Positions 15,906 to 28,211 of a DNA stretch of 64,000 nucleotides are shown here, one piece after another. How positions within the stretch are numbered: position 1 is the first letter of the stretch; each line of letters starts with the position of its first letter. The position numbers were made by a program, and so were the translations under genes. The DNA comes from Caulobacteraceae bacterium (lineage in GTDB: Bacteria; Pseudomonadota; Alphaproteobacteria; Caulobacterales; Caulobacteraceae), in assembly GCA_947476325.1 (NCBI GenBank), contig CANJPZ010000005.1:62001-126000 (forward strand), in the 5' to 3' direction. The notes beneath the pieces are model-generated. The model worked only from the letters and a program-made list of their open reading frames with translations. It had not been told where the DNA came from and did no database searches.

Positions 15906-16124
15906 ATGGCGAAAGAAGAACTCTTAGAATTTCCGGGCACAGTCAGTGAACTGCTGCCGAACGCCACCTTTCGGGTGACGCTGGAGAACGATCACGAGAT
16001 CATCGCCCACACCGCCGGCAAGATGCGCAAGAACCGTATCCGCGTCCTGGCCGGCGACAAGGTCCTGGTCGAAATGACGCCCTATGATCTCACCAAGGGC
16101 CGCATCACCTACAGATTCAAATAG
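15906..16124 (+). CDS. infA: Translation initiation factor IF-1
   Basis: This is a 72-residue S1/OB-fold protein starting [20 protein letters not shown] and containing [20 protein letters not shown] and [20 protein letters not shown], the standard IF-1 sequence. It binds the A site of the 30S subunit during initiation. The start at 15906 gives the normal length and has a GGAAAAGG ribosome-binding site; an upstream in-frame start would add 24 foreign residues. The Maf gene begins 10 bases after its stop. Confidence 0.96.
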
Positions 16125-16134
16125 CCGGGCCTTG

Positions 16135-16701
16135 GTGCCCGTGCTCGTTCTGGCGAGCGAAAGCCCGCGCCGGCTCGATCTGCTGAGACAGGCAGGTCTC
16201 GAGCCGGACCGTATCGCGCCCTGCAATATCGACGAGACGCCGGGCCGTGATGAGTCCGCCCGCAACCTCGCCCTGCGTCTGGCGCTCGAGAAGGCGCAGG
16301 CCGCGCACCGGCCGGGGCAGTTCACCCTCGGGGCCGATACAGTGGTGTGCGTGGGCCTGCGCATTCTGCCCAAGGCCGAAACCGAGGCTCAGGCGCGAAA
16401 GTGCCTGGCCCTGTTGTCGGGTCGCGCCCACCGCGTGTTGAGCGCCGTCGCGGTGATCGGTCCGGATGGCAAGACCGCCCGGCGTCTTTCCGAGACACGG
16501 CTGCATTTCAAGCGTCTGACCGATCACGAGATCGAAGGCTATATCGCCAGCGATGAATGGCGCGGCAAGGCCGGCGGTTATGGCGTGCAAGGCCGCGCGG
16601 GCGCCTTCGTGACGGCCCTGTCGGGATCCTATACCGGCGTCGTTGGCCTGCCGCTCTACGAGACTCTGTGCCTGCTTGATGGGCTGGGATATCGGCGATG
16701 A
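16135..16701 (+). CDS. maf: Maf family nucleoside-triphosphate pyrophosphatase
   Basis: This protein of about 188 residues belongs to the Maf/YhdE/YceF family of house-cleaning pyrophosphatases for non-canonical or methylated nucleotides. The hallmark N-terminus is VLVLASESPRRLDLLRQAGL, and the catalytic Asp is in LGADTVVCVG. AHRVLSAVAVI, EWRGKAGGYGVQGRAGAFV and SYTGVVGLPLYET complete the family. GTG at 16135 was chosen because it starts just before the conserved strand; TTG 16132 or an ATG inside infA are alternatives. Its stop overlaps the RNase gene start (ATGA). Confidence 0.9.
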   Translation: MPVLVLASESPRRLDLLRQAGLEPDRIAPCNIDETPGRDESARNLALRLALEKAQAAHRPGQFTLGADTVVCVGLRILPKAETEAQARKCLALLSGRAHRVLSAVAVIGPDGKTARRLSETRLHFKRLTDHEIEGYIASDEWRGKAGGYGVQGRAGAFVTALSGSYTGVVGLPLYETLCLLDGLGYRR

Positions 16702-17735
16702 GCGCGCGCGCGGCCTATCTTGACCGGGCGATCGGCGAGACCCGCGGCGTCGTCACCTTGAACCAGAGGCCTGAACGGCTGCTTATCCGCCGGGATGGCG
16801 ATCCGGCCAGCCAGCGGCTGGGCGCGCGCTCGACGGCCCGGGTCATCGCTGCCGAACGCGGACTTTCGACAGCATTCCTGCGCATGCCGGATGGCCCGGA
16901 TGTGGTGACCCCGCTGGGGCCCGGCGACAGTCTGGTCCAGGGGGGCTCGGTGTCGGTCGAGGTCATGGCTGAGCCAAGGTCAGGAAAGGGTGCCGTCGTT
17001 CGCGTGCTCGAAGGCGCCGTGGGCCCGCCGCGCTTGACCCGCGAGGCGCCCGAGCTGGAAGCGTGGTTGCAGCTCTGGGCGCCTGGCGAGATCGTCACCG
17101 GCGACGAGGCCCGTGATGCAGCTGATGAGGCCCAGGACGCCGCACTCATGACCGTTCACCCGCTGCCTGGCGGCGGAAGCGTGTCGATTGAGACCACCCG
17201 CGCCCTTACCGCGATCGATGTGGATGTCGGCGCCAGAGGTGGCGGTGACGGACCCCGGGCGGTGCGGCAGACCAACCTTGCGGCCATTGGGGCCGGCGCC
17301 CGTCTGCTGCGACTCAAGGGACTTGGCGGTCTTGTCGTGTTCGATCTTGCCGGCCAGGGCCATAATGGCCCGGCCTTGTCGGCGGCGGCCAAGGCCGCGT
17401 TCGCGCCGGACAATCCGGGTGTGTCGATCGGGCCGATCAGCCGTTTCGGTCTGTTCGAAATGGCGCTGCCCTGGCGCACAACCCCACTGACGGAGCGCCT
17501 GCTTGACGAGACCGGGCAGGTCTCCACCCTGACCTCGGCCCTGGCCATGATGCGCAGCCTGGAACGTGAAGCCCGCGCCAACCCCGGGGCGAGACTGGTG
17601 GTCCGATGTCCGCCGGACGTAGCTGACGCGGCCAAGCCTTATCTTGCGGACCTGCTGAACCGGATCGGATCGCGCTTCAGTCTGGACGCTGCGGCGGGCG
17701 AATCGCGCACCCATGCCGAGGTGAGTATCCTGTGA
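16698..17735 (+). CDS. Short ribonuclease E/G family protein
   Basis: This 345-residue protein matches the RNase E/G family but is much shorter than RNase G (about 490). The catalytic region is recognisable: LPGGGSVSIETTRALTAIDV, with the first catalytic Asp in AIDVDVGARG, and LRLKGLGGLVVFDLAGQ with the second. The usual IDVN is IDVD here. The family's CPxC zinc-link is absent, since the protein ends after the DNase-like domain. An RNA-processing role is likely, but activity and oligomeric state may differ from the classical enzymes. It overlaps maf and yacG by four bases each. Confidence 0.8.
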   Translation: MSARAAYLDRAIGETRGVVTLNQRPERLLIRRDGDPASQRLGARSTARVIAAERGLSTAFLRMPDGPDVVTPLGPGDSLVQGGSVSVEVMAEPRSGKGAVVRVLEGAVGPPRLTREAPELEAWLQLWAPGEIVTGDEARDAADEAQDAALMTVHPLPGGGSVSIETTRALTAIDVDVGARGGGDGPRAVRQTNLAAIGAGARLLRLKGLGGLVVFDLAGQGHNGPALSAAAKAAFAPDNPGVSIGPISRFGLFEMALPWRTTPLTERLLDETGQVSTLTSALAMMRSLEREARANPGARLVVRCPPDVADAAKPYLADLLNRIGSRFSLDAAAGESRTHAEVSIL

Positions 17736-19722: not shown

Positions 19723-20454
19723 ATGGCAGAAGAACCCAACACACCGGCGCCCGCTCGAAATCTATTCGACGGACCGCCGAAGCAAAAGGCCAACATCCCG
19801 GGGCTTATTACGGCCTATGCCGTGACCGGACTGATGTTCAGCCTTTTGGCGGCCTACATGATCAACGCCAAGTTCAAGCTCGAGTATAAACTTTACCACG
19901 ACGACAAGCTTGATACCCAGATCATCAAGCCGCCTCCGCCTCCGCCTCCGCCTCCGCCACCTCCGCCGCCGCCTCCGCCGCCGAAGGATTTGCCGCCGCC
20001 GCCGCCGCCGCCGCCTGTTCAACAGCGGGAAGTGGTTGCGCCGCCGATCAGCATTCCGGCCCCGCCACCCCTGCCTTTGCCCCCGGTGAAGGTCGAGGAA
20101 CGGGTTGAGGCTCCGCCGCCGCCGGTTCGCGTACCGCCGGCGCCGCCGGCTAGGCCGTCGGTCATCACGTCGCCCGATTGGGTTACGCGGCCTACGGACG
20201 CCGATCTGTTCAAGGCCTTCCCTGACCGCGCCATGCGGATGGGCAAGGAAGGGCGGGCCACGCTGACCTGCGTCGTCAACGAAGACGGCACTCTGAGCGC
20301 TTGTTCGGTGACGTCAGAATCGCCGGCTGGTTACAACTTTGGCAGCAGCGCCATGTCTCTGGTGCCCAAGTTCAAGATGCGGCCACAAACCAAGGACGGC
20401 GCCCCCGTGGGCGGCGCCAAGGTCGCGGTCCCCGTGATCTTCAACCTTCAATAG
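19723..20454 (+). CDS. tonB: Energy transducer TonB with long polyproline spacer
   Basis: This 243-residue protein couples the ExbBD motor to outer-membrane receptors. After about 25 cytoplasmic residues comes one transmembrane helix (ITAYAVTGLMFSLLAAYMI). A periplasmic spacer follows that contains an uninterrupted run of about 18 prolines and then shorter Pro runs. The C-terminal domain has SPDWVTRPTDADLFKAFPDR, then RATLTCVVNEDGTLSACSV with a C-x10-C pair, and KFKMRPQTKDGAPVGGAKV. A strong terminator follows the stop. Confidence 0.93.
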   Translation: MAEEPNTPAPARNLFDGPPKQKANIPGLITAYAVTGLMFSLLAAYMINAKFKLEYKLYHDDKLDTQIIKPPPPPPPPPPPPPPPPPPKDLPPPPPPPPVQQREVVAPPISIPAPPPLPLPPVKVEERVEAPPPPVRVPPAPPARPSVITSPDWVTRPTDADLFKAFPDRAMRMGKEGRATLTCVVNEDGTLSACSVTSESPAGYNFGSSAMSLVPKFKMRPQTKDGAPVGGAKVAVPVIFNLQ

Positions 20455-20679: not shown

Positions 20680-21702
20680 ATGAAGACCGGCGCACCTGAC
20701 CTTCGAGGCGCTCATATCCTCATCGTCGGCGCGGGCGTGTTCGGAAGCGCAATTGCGCTGGAACTGCGGCGGGCCGGCGCGTCCATCCAGCTGATCGAGG
20801 CCCGGCTTCCGCCCGACAATGCTTCATCGATCGCCGCCGGCATGCTGGCGCCGGCGTTTGAGGCGGCTCTGGATCCTCAAGGAGCCTCGTTTGCCCTGCT
20901 TCGCGCCGCGCGCGATCTGTGGCCCGACTTTATCGAGGGGCTGGGTCCGACGGGCTTTGAACGTTGCGGTGCTCGAATGGAGGCCCCCGGCGAAACCCTG
21001 GCGCGGCTGGCTTCCGCCTTTTCGCAATTTGGCGCAGCTTTCGAGTCCGCCTCCGGCGGCATATTCACACCCGAGGACTGGCGCCTCGACCCCGCTTTGG
21101 CTCTCAGGGCCATGATGGCAGAGGCCTTGGGCACAGATCGCGTCCCCATTATCTCGCGGGTCATCGGGGCTGACTTGCAAAGCGTGACCCTTGAGAATGG
21201 ACAATTCCTCGAAGCCGACGCGGTCGTGCTGGCCTGCGGTTATGGCGGGCTGGACCTCGCGCCGGAACTTTCAGCGCTGATCCCGATCAAGGGCCAAATT
21301 GTGCGTTTTCCTGGAGCCAGCTTTTTCGGCGGCCCCATCTTGCGAAGTGAATCAGGCTATCTGGTTCCCGGCTGGGGCGGCGCGTTGGCCGGCACCACCA
21401 TGCAGACCGGGAGGAGCGACAGGGTGATCGATCCCGATGTAACTGCGAGGCTGGTTGCTCAGGCTATCGCCCTGGCCCCGGTGCTGGCCGGCGTGGAGAC
21501 GCAAGCCTCAGCAGCGGTGCGCCCTGCCACGTCCGACGGGCTTCCCATGATCGGCCAGTCCCAAAGCGGCGTCTGGCTGGCGACCGGCGCACGGCGAAAT
21601 GGCTGGTTGCTGGCGCCCATGGCCGCCCGCCTGATCGCGGGCGGCCTGACCGGCCAGGCAGGTGATGGACGGTTCGCGCCGTCGCGCTTTCAGCCGCTGT
21701 AG
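20680..21702 (+). CDS. FAD-dependent oxidoreductase, glycine oxidase (ThiO)-like
   Basis: This 340-residue D-amino-acid-oxidase-type flavoprotein begins with the dinucleotide fold HILIVGAGVFGSAIALELRR, with IEARLPP at the end of the second strand. Further blocks are SSIAAGMLAPAFEA, EADAVVLACGYGG, IPIKGQIVRF and the C-terminal TSDGLPMIGQSQSGVWLATG followed by RNGWLLAPMAARLIAGG. This layout is that of glycine oxidase ThiO, which supplies iminoglycine for thiamine. No other thi genes are near, so the exact substrate is unproven. ATG 20680 has GGGGAAG upstream and gives the natural start. It converges with the orphan TonB gene and overlaps it by 13 bases. Confidence 0.82.
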   Translation: MKTGAPDLRGAHILIVGAGVFGSAIALELRRAGASIQLIEARLPPDNASSIAAGMLAPAFEAALDPQGASFALLRAARDLWPDFIEGLGPTGFERCGARMEAPGETLARLASAFSQFGAAFESASGGIFTPEDWRLDPALALRAMMAEALGTDRVPIISRVIGADLQSVTLENGQFLEADAVVLACGYGGLDLAPELSALIPIKGQIVRFPGASFFGGPILRSESGYLVPGWGGALAGTTMQTGRSDRVIDPDVTARLVAQAIALAPVLAGVETQASAAVRPATSDGLPMIGQSQSGVWLATGARRNGWLLAPMAARLIAGGLTGQAGDGRFAPSRFQPL

Positions 21703-22442
21703 TTAAACTCTACCGGTATACGAACCTTTGCCCCTTCAATGGTCTGGCCATCGACGGTGCGTGGGTTCATCCGGAAGTGGGGCGCCAGGCGAAGGGCTGC
21801 GACGCCGAATCCATTGGCCTTGGGAGTTTCACTGGCGATTTCACATCCCGACATTGCGCCGCTGGCCAGAACCGAACAGACCAGATCGGCCTGTCCCGAC
21901 AAGCCCATCCGCGACGCACGCTGCGGATAGATCGCGTTGGTCTGTGCTTGTGTCGGTATGGTCAGCCAGTCCGGGTTTCGGATGGTCCGGTTGACTGGCG
22001 GCGGGGTGGGCTGGGTTGGGACCATGGTGGCGGGTGGAGTTGAGGTGGTCGGCAAGACCGCCGGGCCTGTCGAGGTCTGCGGCGGATCACCCGTCACCGG
22101 CGGCGAGAAAATGGGATCGACCACCGGGTCAGTGAAAACCGGATCGGTGGGCCTGGAGATCACCAGATTCCTGGGTTGCGGCGGAGGGGTTGTCTTGTCG
22201 GGCGTGCGCTGGTGCAAAATCCTCGGCCAGGGGTTCATCGTGATGACTGGGTCGTCGCCGGGTTGCTCGATCGGCTTGAACTGGATTTTCTGCAGGGCGA
22301 AGTAGCCGCCGAGGATTCCATAGGCCGCCCCAACCAGAGCAACGGTTGTCAGGGTCTTTCGATTCCACTTGAGGCGCGGAGCCTCAACGTAAAACAGGTC
22401 TGCGAGGCTGCGTTCGTTTGCGTCCAGTCTGATGGCCATCAT
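21690..22442 (-). CDS. Orphan TonB-family energy transducer
   Basis: This 250-residue protein has about 30 cytoplasmic residues, one membrane helix (LTTVALVGAAYGILGGYFAL), a Pro/Thr-rich periplasmic spacer (about 70-155) and a TonB C-terminal domain. That domain reads NPDWLTIPTQAQTNAIYPQR, QADLVCSVLASGAMSGCEIA and HFRMNPRTVDG, parallel to the TonB encoded at 19723-20454 and with the same C-x10-C pair. There is no ExbB or ExbD next to it. ATG 22442 is preceded by GGAGGA and was preferred over longer forms. It probably serves a subset of receptors using a shared motor, which is an inference. Confidence 0.85.
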   Translation of the reverse strand: MMAIRLDANERSLADLFYVEAPRLKWNRKTLTTVALVGAAYGILGGYFALQKIQFKPIEQPGDDPVITMNPWPRILHQRTPDKTTPPPQPRNLVISRPTDPVFTDPVVDPIFSPPVTGDPPQTSTGPAVLPTTSTPPATMVPTQPTPPPVNRTIRNPDWLTIPTQAQTNAIYPQRASRMGLSGQADLVCSVLASGAMSGCEIASETPKANGFGVAALRLAPHFRMNPRTVDGQTIEGAKVRIPVEFNYSG

Positions 22443-22594
22443 GATCGAGTTCCTCCGTTTTTGGTCGCATTGGCCCGCGACAGGAGAAAGATGCGCTTTC
22501 AAAAGACTACAAACAAGAAACATTGCGCAACATTGCAAAAACTGCGATCCCGCAACATTAGGATTCATTAACCATAAGCGGCGATCAATCGCCC

Positions 22595-23416
22595 ATGCCC
22601 GTTGAGTCCATCAAAGGTGTCGTTGAATCCGCCATCCAGCGCGCGTCCGCCGCGACCGGTGTGGACTTCAGTTTCCTGATGGGGACCGCCAAACGCGAGA
22701 GCGCGCTCAATCCTTCCGCAAAGGCGGGGGGATCAAGTGCCGCCGGACTATTTCAGTTCGTCGAGCAGACTTGGCTGGGTACGCTCAAATCCCACGGTGC
22801 CAAGTACGGTTATGCCCGCTATGCCGACCTGGTCCAGAAAGGCTCGGACGGCCGCTACCAGGTGCCGTCAGGGCCTGAGTCGCGCCAGGCAGTGATGGAC
22901 CTGCGCTTCGATCCCAGGGCCGCTTCGCTGATGGCCGGCGAGCTGACAAGTGAACATGCCGCCTATCTGCGTGGCAGCGTAGGCCGCAACCCGACTTCGG
23001 GCGAGCTCTATGCGGCGCATTTTCTCGGACCCGAGGGCTCGGCGCGCCTGATCCGGGCGGTGCAGAACAATCCCCAGTCCTCCGCTGCGGCGATGTTTCC
23101 CGACGCCGCCCAGGCCAACCACAACATCTTCTATCGCAGCGGCCGTGCGGCGACGGTGGCCGAGGTCTACGCCAACCTGACGACCACACCTGCAGCCAGT
23201 GCTGGCGCAGCCGCTGCGCCTCAGGCTGCGCCGCCTGTGGACCGCGCCTTTATAAACTACGCTTCCGGCCGCCAGATCGATCGCATTCAGCAACAGCGCG
23301 AACTGGTCAATCTGGTTCTGCGGGGGTCTGACAGCAGTGAATCTACGCCGGGGGGCTCGCTGTTCGACGCAGCCCTAATGCGGGCGGTGGCCTACGCCCA
23401 GGCCCGCGACAACTAG
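22595..23416 (+). CDS. Lytic transglycosylase SLT-domain protein
   Basis: This 273-residue protein has an SLT-type lysozyme-like domain in its first 200 residues. The catalytic Glu is E35 in LMGTAKRESALNPSAK, followed by SSAAGLFQFVEQTWLGTLK and GELYAAHFLGPEGSARLI. No signal peptide is visible at the N-terminus, so export may use a non-Sec route, such as the flagellar or another secretion apparatus. The C-terminus is a short Ala/Pro linker and a helical tail. It cleaves peptidoglycan, probably to make room for an envelope machine. Its stop overlaps the convergent receiver-like gene by four bases. Confidence 0.85.
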   Translation: MPVESIKGVVESAIQRASAATGVDFSFLMGTAKRESALNPSAKAGGSSAAGLFQFVEQTWLGTLKSHGAKYGYARYADLVQKGSDGRYQVPSGPESRQAVMDLRFDPRAASLMAGELTSEHAAYLRGSVGRNPTSGELYAAHFLGPEGSARLIRAVQNNPQSSAAAMFPDAAQANHNIFYRSGRAATVAEVYANLTTTPAASAGAAAAPQAAPPVDRAFINYASGRQIDRIQQQRELVNLVLRGSDSSESTPGGSLFDAALMRAVAYAQARDN

Positions 23417-23754
23417 GCCGCGTTCGCCGCGTCTGGATGAACTTTCGCTTCCAGAGCCACCAGCGCCCGCGCCACGGCGGCGGTCCTAAAGGGTGGCCGT
23501 AGAATTCCCGTGCAGCCCGCGGCGAGGCAGGCGGCCGCAGCCTCAGCGTTGCCGTCTGTGACCCCCAGGATCGGCGTGCGCAGCCCAGAGCCCGCCAGAA
23601 TGCAGGCGGCATCGGCCCCGGCGATGACCACATCGGCCTTGCAGGTCTTGAGCAGCTCCGTGGCCCGATCCGGTCCCTGGGTCTGAATGATCTGGTGCCC
23701 GAGGTCCTCAAGCACCGCCCGCAGATGTCCCGGCGACCTGTCCACGCAGGTCAT
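23413..23754 (-). CDS. Degenerate receiver-domain protein
   Basis: This 113-residue frame has the size and secondary-structure pattern of a response-regulator receiver: VDRSPGHLRAVLEDLGHQII, KADVVIAGADAA, TPILGVTDG and AAGCTGILRPPF. The phospho-acceptor Asp position is Gly46 (DVVIAG instead of the usual DLVLMD), one of the two acidic pocket residues is missing, and the KP motif is RP (Arg86). It cannot be a normal phospho-receiver. The ATG at 23754 lies inside the end of the kinase frame in another frame. It may be a separate coupled gene, or the former C-terminal domain of the kinase after a second frameshift. Confidence 0.55.
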   Translation of the reverse strand: MTCVDRSPGHLRAVLEDLGHQIIQTQGPDRATELLKTCKADVVIAGADAACILAGSGLRTPILGVTDGNAEAAAACLAAGCTGILRPPFRTAAVARALVALEAKVHPDAANAA

Positions 23755-25148
23755 AAGGCAGATCAAGCCAGAAACAGCTGCCCGCGCCTTCCGCACTGAC
23801 GGCGCCGACCTCGCCACCCATCAGTTGAGCCAGGGATCTGGTCAGGGAAAGGCCCAGTCCCGCCCCGATGGTTCCGGCGCTCGTGCGTGCGACCCGGGTA
23901 AAGGGCAGGAATGCCTGGGCGATCTCATCTGGCGCAAGGCCAGGGCCGGTGTCAGCAACTTCGAAACGCACCCGCGCATCGCCCTCGCGGCGAAGGCGTA
24001 CCTCGACCCGGCCGCGAGCGGTAAACTTCAGGGCGTTGTCGATCAGGCTCAGCAGGATCTGGCGTGTCCGGACGGGGTCGGCGCGAACCGCTCCGGACTC
24101 CAGTTCAGGTTCAACGAACACTGAAAATTCCAGCCCCCGCGCCGTGGCGTGGGGTTGGCTAGAGATACACCAAGTCGCGAACCAGCCTGGAGCCGTCAAA
24201 CAATTCCGGCCGCACAGCAAGCTGGCCCGCTTCGGCGAACTCGGTGTCCAGTGTCGCCTCAAGCACTTCGGCCAGATCGCTGGAGGCCTCCAGCGCGGCC
24301 TCCAGCGCGGCCTTCATCTGGTCGCGGGAGGGCGCAGAGCGAAGGGTCGGGCCGGCCGCAGCCGCCAGAACGTGGGTCACGCCCGCCAGGCCGTTGCGAA
24401 TTTCGCTGCCCAGGGTGGCGATCAGCGCTGATTTGGAACTCGCCAGCCGTCTGGCGTCGAGCGCGGACTGCTCGCCGGCCCGGGCTAGGCGACTGCACTC
24501 TTCGCTTAGCAGAAACTGCCGCTCGAGAATCCGATTGACCAGCAATGACAGCGTCATGGCAAGAGCCAGCGCGCCGCTGCCGAACAGGGCGGTCGGACGG
24601 GTATCCGGCGACAGAAACAGACAGATCAGTGGCCCTGCACTTGCCGCAGGCCCCACCAGCAGCAAGGCCGGCAGCACAGGCGCGAGAAAGAAGAAACAGG
24701 CCATGGCCCCGGCACAGGCCAGGATCAGCAGCGACTCGCGCGCTGGTCCAGCGCCCAGGGCAAATAAGCCTATCTGGGTTATGGCGACCGCCCACAGCAG
24801 TCCACCCAGGACATGAATTCGCGTGCGTGCGACCGGATCGGCGGCCAGCTCAGGGCGGCGTCTGACTGTGGAGGCCAGCGCGTAAAATACTCCCCAGTTG
24901 ATCGCAAAGATCGCCAGGCTGACGATCATCAGCTGCCCATTCGCGGCTGCCGACGAGGCCCACGCGAACATCGTCAGTCCGACTGCGAAAAAGACCAGAG
25001 CGTAGGGCAACAGAGCCGCCTGGGCCTCGAGGGCCAGAAGACGAAGCGCCGCAGTCGCAGGAGGAGCGTCCGCCGGTTGGTCTTTCCGAGGGGGGGAATA
25101 AAGAGAGATCAGAGCGGACGCCCTCCTGCTGTCAGGACAATCCCACAT
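23708..25148 (-). pseudogene. Frameshifted, phospho-His-less sensor histidine kinase
   Basis: The first frame (25148 down to 24159, 329 residues) has about seven hydrophobic segments and then the dimerisation helix. There SALIATLGSEIRNGLAG aligns with the usual ATMSHEIRTPL, putting Ser248 at the phospho-His position. It ends at TAG in GTGTATCTCTAGCC. Removing one T joins it to a second frame reading QPHATARGLEFSVFVEPELE, which carries an intact ATPase domain: LLSLIDNALKFTARG (N box), VADTGPGLAPDE and GAGLGLSLTRSLAQLMGGEV. So the gene is both catalytically altered and broken, unless the extra T is a sequencing error. The second frame stops at 23708. Confidence 0.7.
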
Positions 25149-25270: not shown

Positions 25271-26413
25271 ATGGCGACGACACGCACCGCCCTCACCGAT
25301 GAGGACATCCGCGCCCTGATAAAGGGTCCCACCGCCGATGACCGGGCAATCGCCGCGCACAAGATCTGCCGCAGCATCGACCGCGTCGACCTTACGCCCG
25401 AGGAGCGAACCCGCGCTCACGAAATCTTGCGGCTGATGGCGGCGGACGCGGCAGAACTGGTGCGCCGCGCTCTGGCCGTAACGTTGAAGGGGTCGGACAA
25501 CCTGCCGCGTGACGTGGCGCTGCAACTGGCCAGGGACATCGATTCCATCGCCCTGCCGGTCCTGGCCTTTTCGCCGGCCTTCACGGACGAAGACCTGAAA
25601 GAAATTATCCGGTTGGGCGAGCCGGTTCGCCAGATTGCTGTCGCCCGCAGGCCGGATATCTCGGAAGATGTCACAGCCACCATCGTCGAATTCGGCGCCG
25701 AAAAGGCCGTTGAAACCGCCTGCGCCAACGACAATGCGCGCTTCTCGGAGATGAGCCTTCAAAAGGCGCTCGACCGGTTCTCAAAGGCCGAGAGCGTTCT
25801 GCAGGCGGTCGCCTATCGCCAAATCCTGCCGCTGTCGGTAACCGAGCGCCTGATCACCATGGTCAGCGAAAATGTTCGCGAACACCTGGTCAGCCATCAC
25901 GCCATCTCGGCGGAAACCGCGCTGCAGATTTCCTTAAGCGCGCGGGAAAGGGCCAGCGTCGATCTGGTCGATCAGGCGGGCCGCGCCGCCGACGTGCGCA
26001 GTTTTGCAACCCACCTGAACAAGGCCGGCCGGCTGACACCCTCGCTGCTGCTGCGGGCCCTGGCCCATGGGCACATGAGCTTCCTGGAACATGCTATCGC
26101 CGAGTTGTCGGCCGTGCCCCACCACCGCGCCTGGCTGATGGTGCATGACGCCGGGCCCCTGGGTCTGAAAGCCATCTATGAGCGCGCAGGCATGCCGGCC
26201 CGGCTCTATCCGGCCTTCCGCGCGGGGATCGACACCTACCACGCCCTGGAACGCGAAGGAGGCCTGTCCGACCGCGACAAGCTGCAGGAGCGGATGCTGG
26301 AGCGGTTCCTCACCCAGCCCCAGCCTGCCACCCGCGAAGACATGGACTATCTGATCGACAAACTCGACCGGGTCCGTGGCGAAATTCGAGAGCGGACAGC
26401 CGGCGCCGCCTAG
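25271..26413 (+). CDS. DUF2336 domain-containing protein (first copy)
   Basis: This 380-residue helical protein matches the alphaproteobacterial DUF2336 family, shown by LTDEDIRALIKGPTADDRAI, VALQLARDIDSIALPVLAFS and IAVARRPDISEDVTATIVEF. The family forms HEAT-like helical repeats and has no established biochemical role. No membrane segment or signal is visible. It is divergent from the broken kinase gene. A second DUF2336 protein lies 2.6 kb away on the other strand (29031-30140), with an Hpt protein between them, which hints at signalling but does not prove it. Confidence 0.85.
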   Translation: MATTRTALTDEDIRALIKGPTADDRAIAAHKICRSIDRVDLTPEERTRAHEILRLMAADAAELVRRALAVTLKGSDNLPRDVALQLARDIDSIALPVLAFSPAFTDEDLKEIIRLGEPVRQIAVARRPDISEDVTATIVEFGAEKAVETACANDNARFSEMSLQKALDRFSKAESVLQAVAYRQILPLSVTERLITMVSENVREHLVSHHAISAETALQISLSARERASVDLVDQAGRAADVRSFATHLNKAGRLTPSLLLRALAHGHMSFLEHAIAELSAVPHHRAWLMVHDAGPLGLKAIYERAGMPARLYPAFRAGIDTYHALEREGGLSDRDKLQERMLERFLTQPQPATREDMDYLIDKLDRVRGEIRERTAGAA

Positions 26414-27655: not shown

Positions 27656-28135
27656 CTAACCCAGGAACGCCTTTACCTGACGCTCCAGCTCTTCGGCCAG
27701 GGCCCGGCCCATGGGGTTAGTGTCGTCCTTGATGCTGTCGCGAACACAAGCGCGGATGGCGTCGATGTGGGCGTCGATAATCGCCATCGGCGCTTCCAGG
27801 CGGGTTTCGGGCTGGTCGATCATCTTGCAAAGCGATGCTGCGATGCGGGTGATCAGCGGGAATTCATAGGTCGAGCCAAGGCCCTTCAGGTCATGGACTC
27901 GCAGGTAGAGATTTTCGGCCGTTTCCATTGTCCAGCCGTCAGACCTGATGCGAGCGCGGGCGGCGTCGAGTTTGGTGATTTCGTCCTGCAGCCATTCGGC
28001 GAAGTTCGATGACAGGCTCTTCAACGCCGCTTCGGCCTTGGCGATCGCCGCTGGATCTATACCCGCAATTCGCCCACCGACCTTGAATTTCAGGGTGTTG
28101 GGGACATGGATGGTCTGTCCGGGTTGCTGGCTCAT
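27656..28135 (-). CDS. Hpt domain protein (phosphotransfer)
   Basis: This 159-residue protein has a C-terminal histidine-phosphotransfer domain. The phospho-acceptor is in LYLRVHDLKGLGSTYEFPLI, matching the HxxKG motif of Hpt domains, and helices follow to the end. The N-terminal 40 residues (PGQTIHVPNTLKFKVGG) are not part of the domain. It should accept and pass a phosphoryl group between receivers, but its partner kinase is unknown; the nearby hybrid kinase is broken. ATG 28135 opens the conserved sequence. Confidence 0.82.
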   Translation of the reverse strand: MSQQPGQTIHVPNTLKFKVGGRIAGIDPAAIAKAEAALKSLSSNFAEWLQDEITKLDAARARIRSDGWTMETAENLYLRVHDLKGLGSTYEFPLITRIAASLCKMIDQPETRLEAPMAIIDAHIDAIRACVRDSIKDDTNPMGRALAEELERQVKAFLG

Positions 28136-28211
28136 CGTCGTATCCTCGGCGCTGCGTTGCGCGAATGGCCGGAGCATCAACAAACCACGTTAAAAATGGG
28201 TGTGTCGCGGA

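Follow-up and report, generated by a model that had tools for sequence, protein, structure and literature searches.

Pseudo-histidine kinases and pseudo-receivers are already known kinds of protein, the former mostly as isolated cases. One of these, DivL, has a tyrosine at the histidine site, carries PAS domains upstream of its DHp domain and lacks a receiver. Here we compare such systems with a split kinase gene in the window (the whole stretch of DNA analysed, 64,000 nucleotides in length and part of a 128-kb contig in a 2.65-Mb Caulobacteraceae genome of 39 contigs, rated 99.91% complete) and with the family of hybrid kinases to which it belongs. In the accessible text of two papers, DivL is described as a pseudo-histidine kinase of Caulobacter (PMC4211667, PMC9430884), and, like the family studied here, it is an alphaproteobacterial kinase-like protein with DHp and ATPase modules; it acts as a regulator rather than a conventional kinase, as members of the family may do. 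The family's profile matches DivL chain 4q20; the family differs from DivL in its six-helix membrane part and its receiver (the latter in 33/36 members), while no PAS domain was detected in any of the same 36.

The order HisKA–HATPase–receiver is common to the family and to canonical hybrid kinases (ShkA, and those of the TorS/ArcB type). The hybrid kinase 6qrj, which bears the name ShkA in the available portion of PMC11481889, is among the best PDB sequence matches, and TorS is the best NCBIfam match, far below its cut-off. In contrast to the canonical kinases, the phospho-His is missing from the window copy and from 47 of the 151 distinct orthologues. ShkA also has a pseudo-receiver (PMC12632262, from its accessible text), yet retains a working kinase. 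Pseudo-receivers as presented in that text have the receiver fold without the phospho-Asp, as does the alternating alpha/beta domain predicted for the relative L077, but the family loses the Asp together with the phospho-His in the same proteins (44/151). By comparison, survey figures given there put the share without the phospho-site at 0.9% for HisKA domains and 2.0% for receivers (PMC12632262). In C. crescentus, the hybrid kinase CCNA_03265 (CC_3162) is reported, in the part of the paper available, to be without the conserved His, like the His-less members here; it differs in retaining the receiver Asp, and its authors' candidate His is residue 151 (PMC11481889).

The window gene (23413–25148, minus strand) lies between 25148 and 23413 as three pieces in three frames. 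We consider it probable that a hybrid histidine kinase of the Caulobacteraceae had here already turned into a pseudokinase when, very recently, its gene became a pseudogene. Its features, with the divergent neighbouring gene, are as follows.

24159..25148, minus strand: N-terminal fragment of 329 aa, with six-helix membrane part and HisKA-like DHp domain (open reading frame and orthologue comparison)
24405..24407, minus strand: Ser codon AGC (Ser248) at the phospho-His position (orthologue alignment)
24285..24311, minus strand: 12-bp tandem duplication in the DHp domain, giving four extra residues in columns filled in 0/151 orthologues
24157..24170, minus strand: one extra base, producing a TAG and a frame change, in GTGTATCTCTAG (DNA alignment with L010 and L011)
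23708..24163, minus strand: HATPase_c domain in the shifted frame, motifs intact, then a stop (PF02518, 92.8 bits; 0/35 near-invariant columns changed)
24020-24046, minus strand: N box, intact (sequence)
23936-23953, minus strand: DTGPGL, intact (sequence)
23843-23866, minus strand: GAGLGLSL, intact (sequence)
23727..23746, minus strand: 20-bp linker remnant, flanked by a net 74-bp deletion (15 + 59) relative to both genus relatives
23413..23735, minus strand: receiver remnant in the third frame, without the acidic pair, with Gly at the Asp site and RP for KP (alignment)
23488-23502, minus strand: RP in place of KP in the receiver remnant (sequence)
25271..26413, plus strand: DUF2336 protein, divergent neighbour and synteny partner (PF10098, 243.6 bits)

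Compared with a canonical HisKA hybrid kinase, the window copy thus lacks the phospho-His as well as the phospho-Asp, acidic pair and Lys of the receiver, whereas the HATPase_c motifs are present. The membrane helices of the N-terminal fragment are taken from the predicted model of L077. Beyond the stop in GTGTATCTCTAG the ATPase domain resumes in another frame, and its score lies far above the Pfam cut-off of 26.4 bits; HisKA and Response_reg gave no Pfam match in the window fragments. The net 74-bp deletion, at the junction of the ATPase and receiver domains, takes out the linker along with the receiver's first strand and its acidic pair, and places the receiver in the third frame. Most of this had been read correctly in a first-pass annotation of the DNA: the H-box ATLGSEIRNGL with Ser248, the intact N box, DTGPGL and GLGLS motifs, RP for KP in the receiver-like frame, the single extra base that splits the kinase (now seen in DNA alignment with two relatives), and Gly46 at the receiver Asp site, whose codon is at 23617-23619 (residue 67 of the open reading frame, and 46 when counted from its only internal methionine, Met22). 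The annotation advised a search for a fused or separate receiver; the receiver-like frame is a decayed remnant of the same gene, following the ATPase part. The net 74-bp deletion and the 12-bp duplication had been overlooked.

A protein search of 60 related genomes recovered 18 relatives of full length (601–672 aa), each with a single open frame. Two of these belong to the same genus and match the N-terminal fragment at 72% and 66% identity, the orthologue in G001 at 72% over residues 13–329. A profile built from 16 of the 18 added 49 named full-length loci (L039–L087) and matches in 390 family genomes; in all, 192 orthologue loci were examined (the 18, the 49, 100 among the family-genome matches listed, and 25 from the genus of G016). 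Removal of duplicates, i.e. the same protein beyond residue 80, left 151 distinct intact orthologues, a set that leans to high scorers, with the 100 loci being part of the higher-scoring family-genome matches listed. The family architecture is a six-helix membrane part, HisKA, HATPase and receiver. The window gene is similar to this group over its membrane, DHp and ATPase parts, and its placement in the tree agrees. The divergent DUF2336 gene adjoins the kinase in all 49 named loci, in the same arrangement as in the window; within flanks of up to 4 kb, other neighbours are a transglycosylase-like gene (42/49), an HPt gene (29/49) and an NAD kinase (27/49). Because the neighbourhood is conserved, the window gene is firmly identified as an orthologue of this hybrid kinase.

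The two phosphorylation sites vary widely across these proteins. In the H-box column His occurs 104 times, Asp 24, Arg 19 and Gln four times; Ser is found in the window alone. The receiver column holds Asp in 100 proteins, Ala in 19, Ser in 14, a gap in 13, Gly in three and Glu in two. Thus 47/151 are without the His and 51/151 without the receiver Asp; 97 have both sites, 44 neither, seven the His only and three the Asp only. All 151 keep the ATP-site residues, N-box Asn and G1 Asp. The first-pass annotation had held that orthologues with His at the Ser column would betray a misalignment on its part; such orthologues did appear, in exactly that column, and they show a true loss. A tree was computed with the His column and the receiver both excluded (quick search, LG+G4; unrooted, several long branches flagged). 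With the window left out, the His/non-His state changed on it at least eight times and the receiver Asp state at least six times. Since His is the general HisKA state, we take the changes at the His column as losses rather than gains. Paired loss of His and Asp was not significant on independent pairs (typically two in the same direction, one opposite and four without change). One member of the Asticcacaulis-like clade, L240, has the His, lacks the receiver Asp and sits on a long branch inside an otherwise His-less clade; its His may have been either retained or regained.

Selection was estimated as dN/dS by NG86 from pairs with dS < 1.2. Medians for the DHp, ATPase and receiver domains were 0.26, 0.32 and 0.42 in the Phenylobacterium-like clade with His changed to Asp, and 0.36, 0.21 and 0.33 among the Asticcacaulis-like Arg proteins, as against 0.12, 0.16 and 0.23–0.25 in two His-bearing sets; five close Asp proteins, a small set, gave 0.04–0.07. 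These ratios, well below 1, indicate that the His-less clades remain under purifying selection, with the DHp domain the most relaxed but no free drift. The predicted structure of L077, which has neither His nor Asp, reached a mean pLDDT of 83 and a pTM of 0.45, and contains membrane helices, a long DHp helix, an ATPase domain and a receiver of alternating strands and helices, with local confidence mostly near 90.

The nearest relative of the window gene is L010, followed by L011 (support 99 and 100). Both are intact and lack the receiver Asp, which is thus missing in all three species of the genus; L010 has the His, and L011 has Asp in its place. Because the window copy and L010 have in common RP for KP and two receiver gaps, decay of the receiver predates their split. 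Four changes fall on the window's own branch: Ser replaced His, 12 bp were duplicated, a net 74 bp were deleted and one base was added. Near-invariant columns are changed in 1/15 cases in the DHp domain and 2/12 in the membrane part, compared with none in the ATPase domain, and nonsynonymous/synonymous changes in the latter, counted against L011, number 10/20 for the window alone and 8/15 for L010. The ATPase part of the window copy was as constrained as that of its intact sister; either the break in the frame must be very young or the extra base is spurious. Both the extra base and the 74-bp deletion are absent from the two genus relatives, as expected of a pseudogene in the window. A functional pseudo-histidine kinase needs an open frame, which is split here and kept in the 47 His-less orthologues.

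The false-base reading, already entertained by the first-pass annotation, is unlikely but is the strongest competitor: the extra base would be an error of sequencing or assembly, and the species would make a receiver-less pseudokinase ending just past the ATPase domain. An assembly error at that base would look like this, leaving an ATPase part without sign of decay; moreover, a stop directly follows the complete HATPase domain, so that loss of the 74 bp by itself would shorten nothing but a receiver that was dead beforehand, and third-position GC of the kinase fragments is close to that of neighbouring genes. The annotation's suspicion is weakened, however, by several features of the locus. 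The extra base lies outside any homopolymer. When window genes were compared with open frames from G001 (a 158-kb contig) and G002 (a 14-kb contig), the kinase alone was truly split. What looked like a second frameshift, at 15998-16731, proved to be two adjacent intact genes in different frames, where the G001 frame merely runs upstream. The 74-bp deletion cannot be a read error, the 12-bp duplication occurs in no orthologue, and among 32 HATPase matches in the genome that of the window is one with a cut frame. The genome also holds a second hybrid histidine kinase broken by several lesions, L005 (G000:C1:285609-288950, about 1140–2700), in which the H-box region is missing, the ATPase lies in a different frame with a TAG, and the receiver frame comes next; its relative in G002 is open (592 aa). 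This second broken gene suggests that gene loss in the window's lineage is real.

Simple decay, in which neutral drift erased the His, like all else, after the frame had broken, we regard as improbable. It would place the His-to-Ser change, duplication, deletion and frameshift together on the window's branch, where they are indeed found; the nearest sister retains the His, and DHp changes, again counted against L011, are somewhat more often nonsynonymous in the window (8/17, against 4/16 in L010). But the His-site codon is two bases off the sister's CAC and the flanking Ser codon one base off, while none of the 35 ATPase columns has changed, and L011, in the same genus, lost the His in an intact gene. 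The base differences at these two codons fit an older change in that spot. The order proposed by the first-pass annotation, pseudokinase first and breakage later, is partly supported: decay of the receiver extends to intact L010, and the ATPase part is undecayed, but His loss and frameshift lie on one branch and their order is unreadable from the tree. Scarcely credible is a programmed +1 frameshift making the full pseudokinase on purpose: a Leu codon is followed by the stop, the +1 frame is open across the whole ATPase domain and the site presumably resembles that of prfB, but the shift is seen in one species only and every examined orthologue is a single open frame.

We thus favour a recently broken pseudokinase gene, with a history of three steps: the receiver Asp would have been lost before the window species and its sister split, the His later, on the window's own branch, and deletion, duplication and an additional base would then have cost the gene its receiver and its continuous frame. 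Judging from the intact orthologues that lack the His, the protein may, before breakage, have been a membrane sensor that bound ATP and switched conformation to control a partner while itself carrying no phosphate. The window copy most likely no longer does anything. Intact His-less members would act as ATP-gated switches on a partner, their fold being taken from one predicted model; the strictly kept ATP site suggests a need for nucleotide. Candidate modes of action are regulation of another kinase, service as the ATP-binding half of a heterodimer, or response-regulator phosphatase activity where the Asn/Thr at H+4 is kept, as in the window and 38/47 His-less orthologues (the H+1 Glu is present in 47/47). 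In HisKA proteins, as described in the available portions of two papers, the H+4 Asn/Thr is needed for phosphatase activity and the H+1 Glu for kinase activity, the Glu being dispensable for the former (PMC3510030); the His is given as dispensable for HisKA phosphatase activity (PMC12632262), and changing it to Ala in PleC abolished both activities (PMC3510030). Phosphatase action is thus possible in most His-less lineages, not all. Phosphatase activity cannot be the sole shared function, because three separate lineages without the His (L020/L021, L011 and L065) have Gly, Ser or Ala at H+4. An alternative acceptor His at +11 was likewise rejected, His being found there in 22/47 His-less orthologues and Gln or Ala otherwise.

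Retention of the ATP pocket after loss of both phosphosites suggests a job that would need ATP but no phosphate relay. We tentatively propose, at slightly less than even odds, that one Caulobacteraceae hybrid kinase has repeatedly been turned into an ATP-dependent, phosphate-free regulator in which phosphotransfer is optional, with the window as an end point where function was dropped; if so, the core function would be nucleotide-gated control of a partner. The literature searched, mostly outside subscription journals, yielded no description of this orthologous group or of its repeated double-site loss with an intact ATP site; the gene may be listed under a C. crescentus number. A single syntenic gene in relatives of Caulobacter provides many natural replicates that have or lack the His and Asp, which makes testable what a kinase-like protein does after phosphotransfer is lost and why ATP binding is kept.

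Several further genes lie near the kinase. An HPt-like protein with an HDLKG motif (27656-28183, minus strand) is found beside an NAD kinase, and an HPt gene is within 4 kb of the kinase in the 29 loci noted above; it is a candidate phosphorelay partner and might correspond to HmrX of C. crescentus (PMC11481889), for whose locus tags no neighbour genes turned up in the literature. Two proline-rich proteins with TonB C-terminal domains are encoded nearby (19723-20454, plus strand; 21690-22568, minus strand). In the genus coded g3, five of about 131 genomes (G104, G135, G171, G191 and G215) have a full-length kinase match among the matches listed, as counted by eye, and whole-gene loss therefore appears to be common there.
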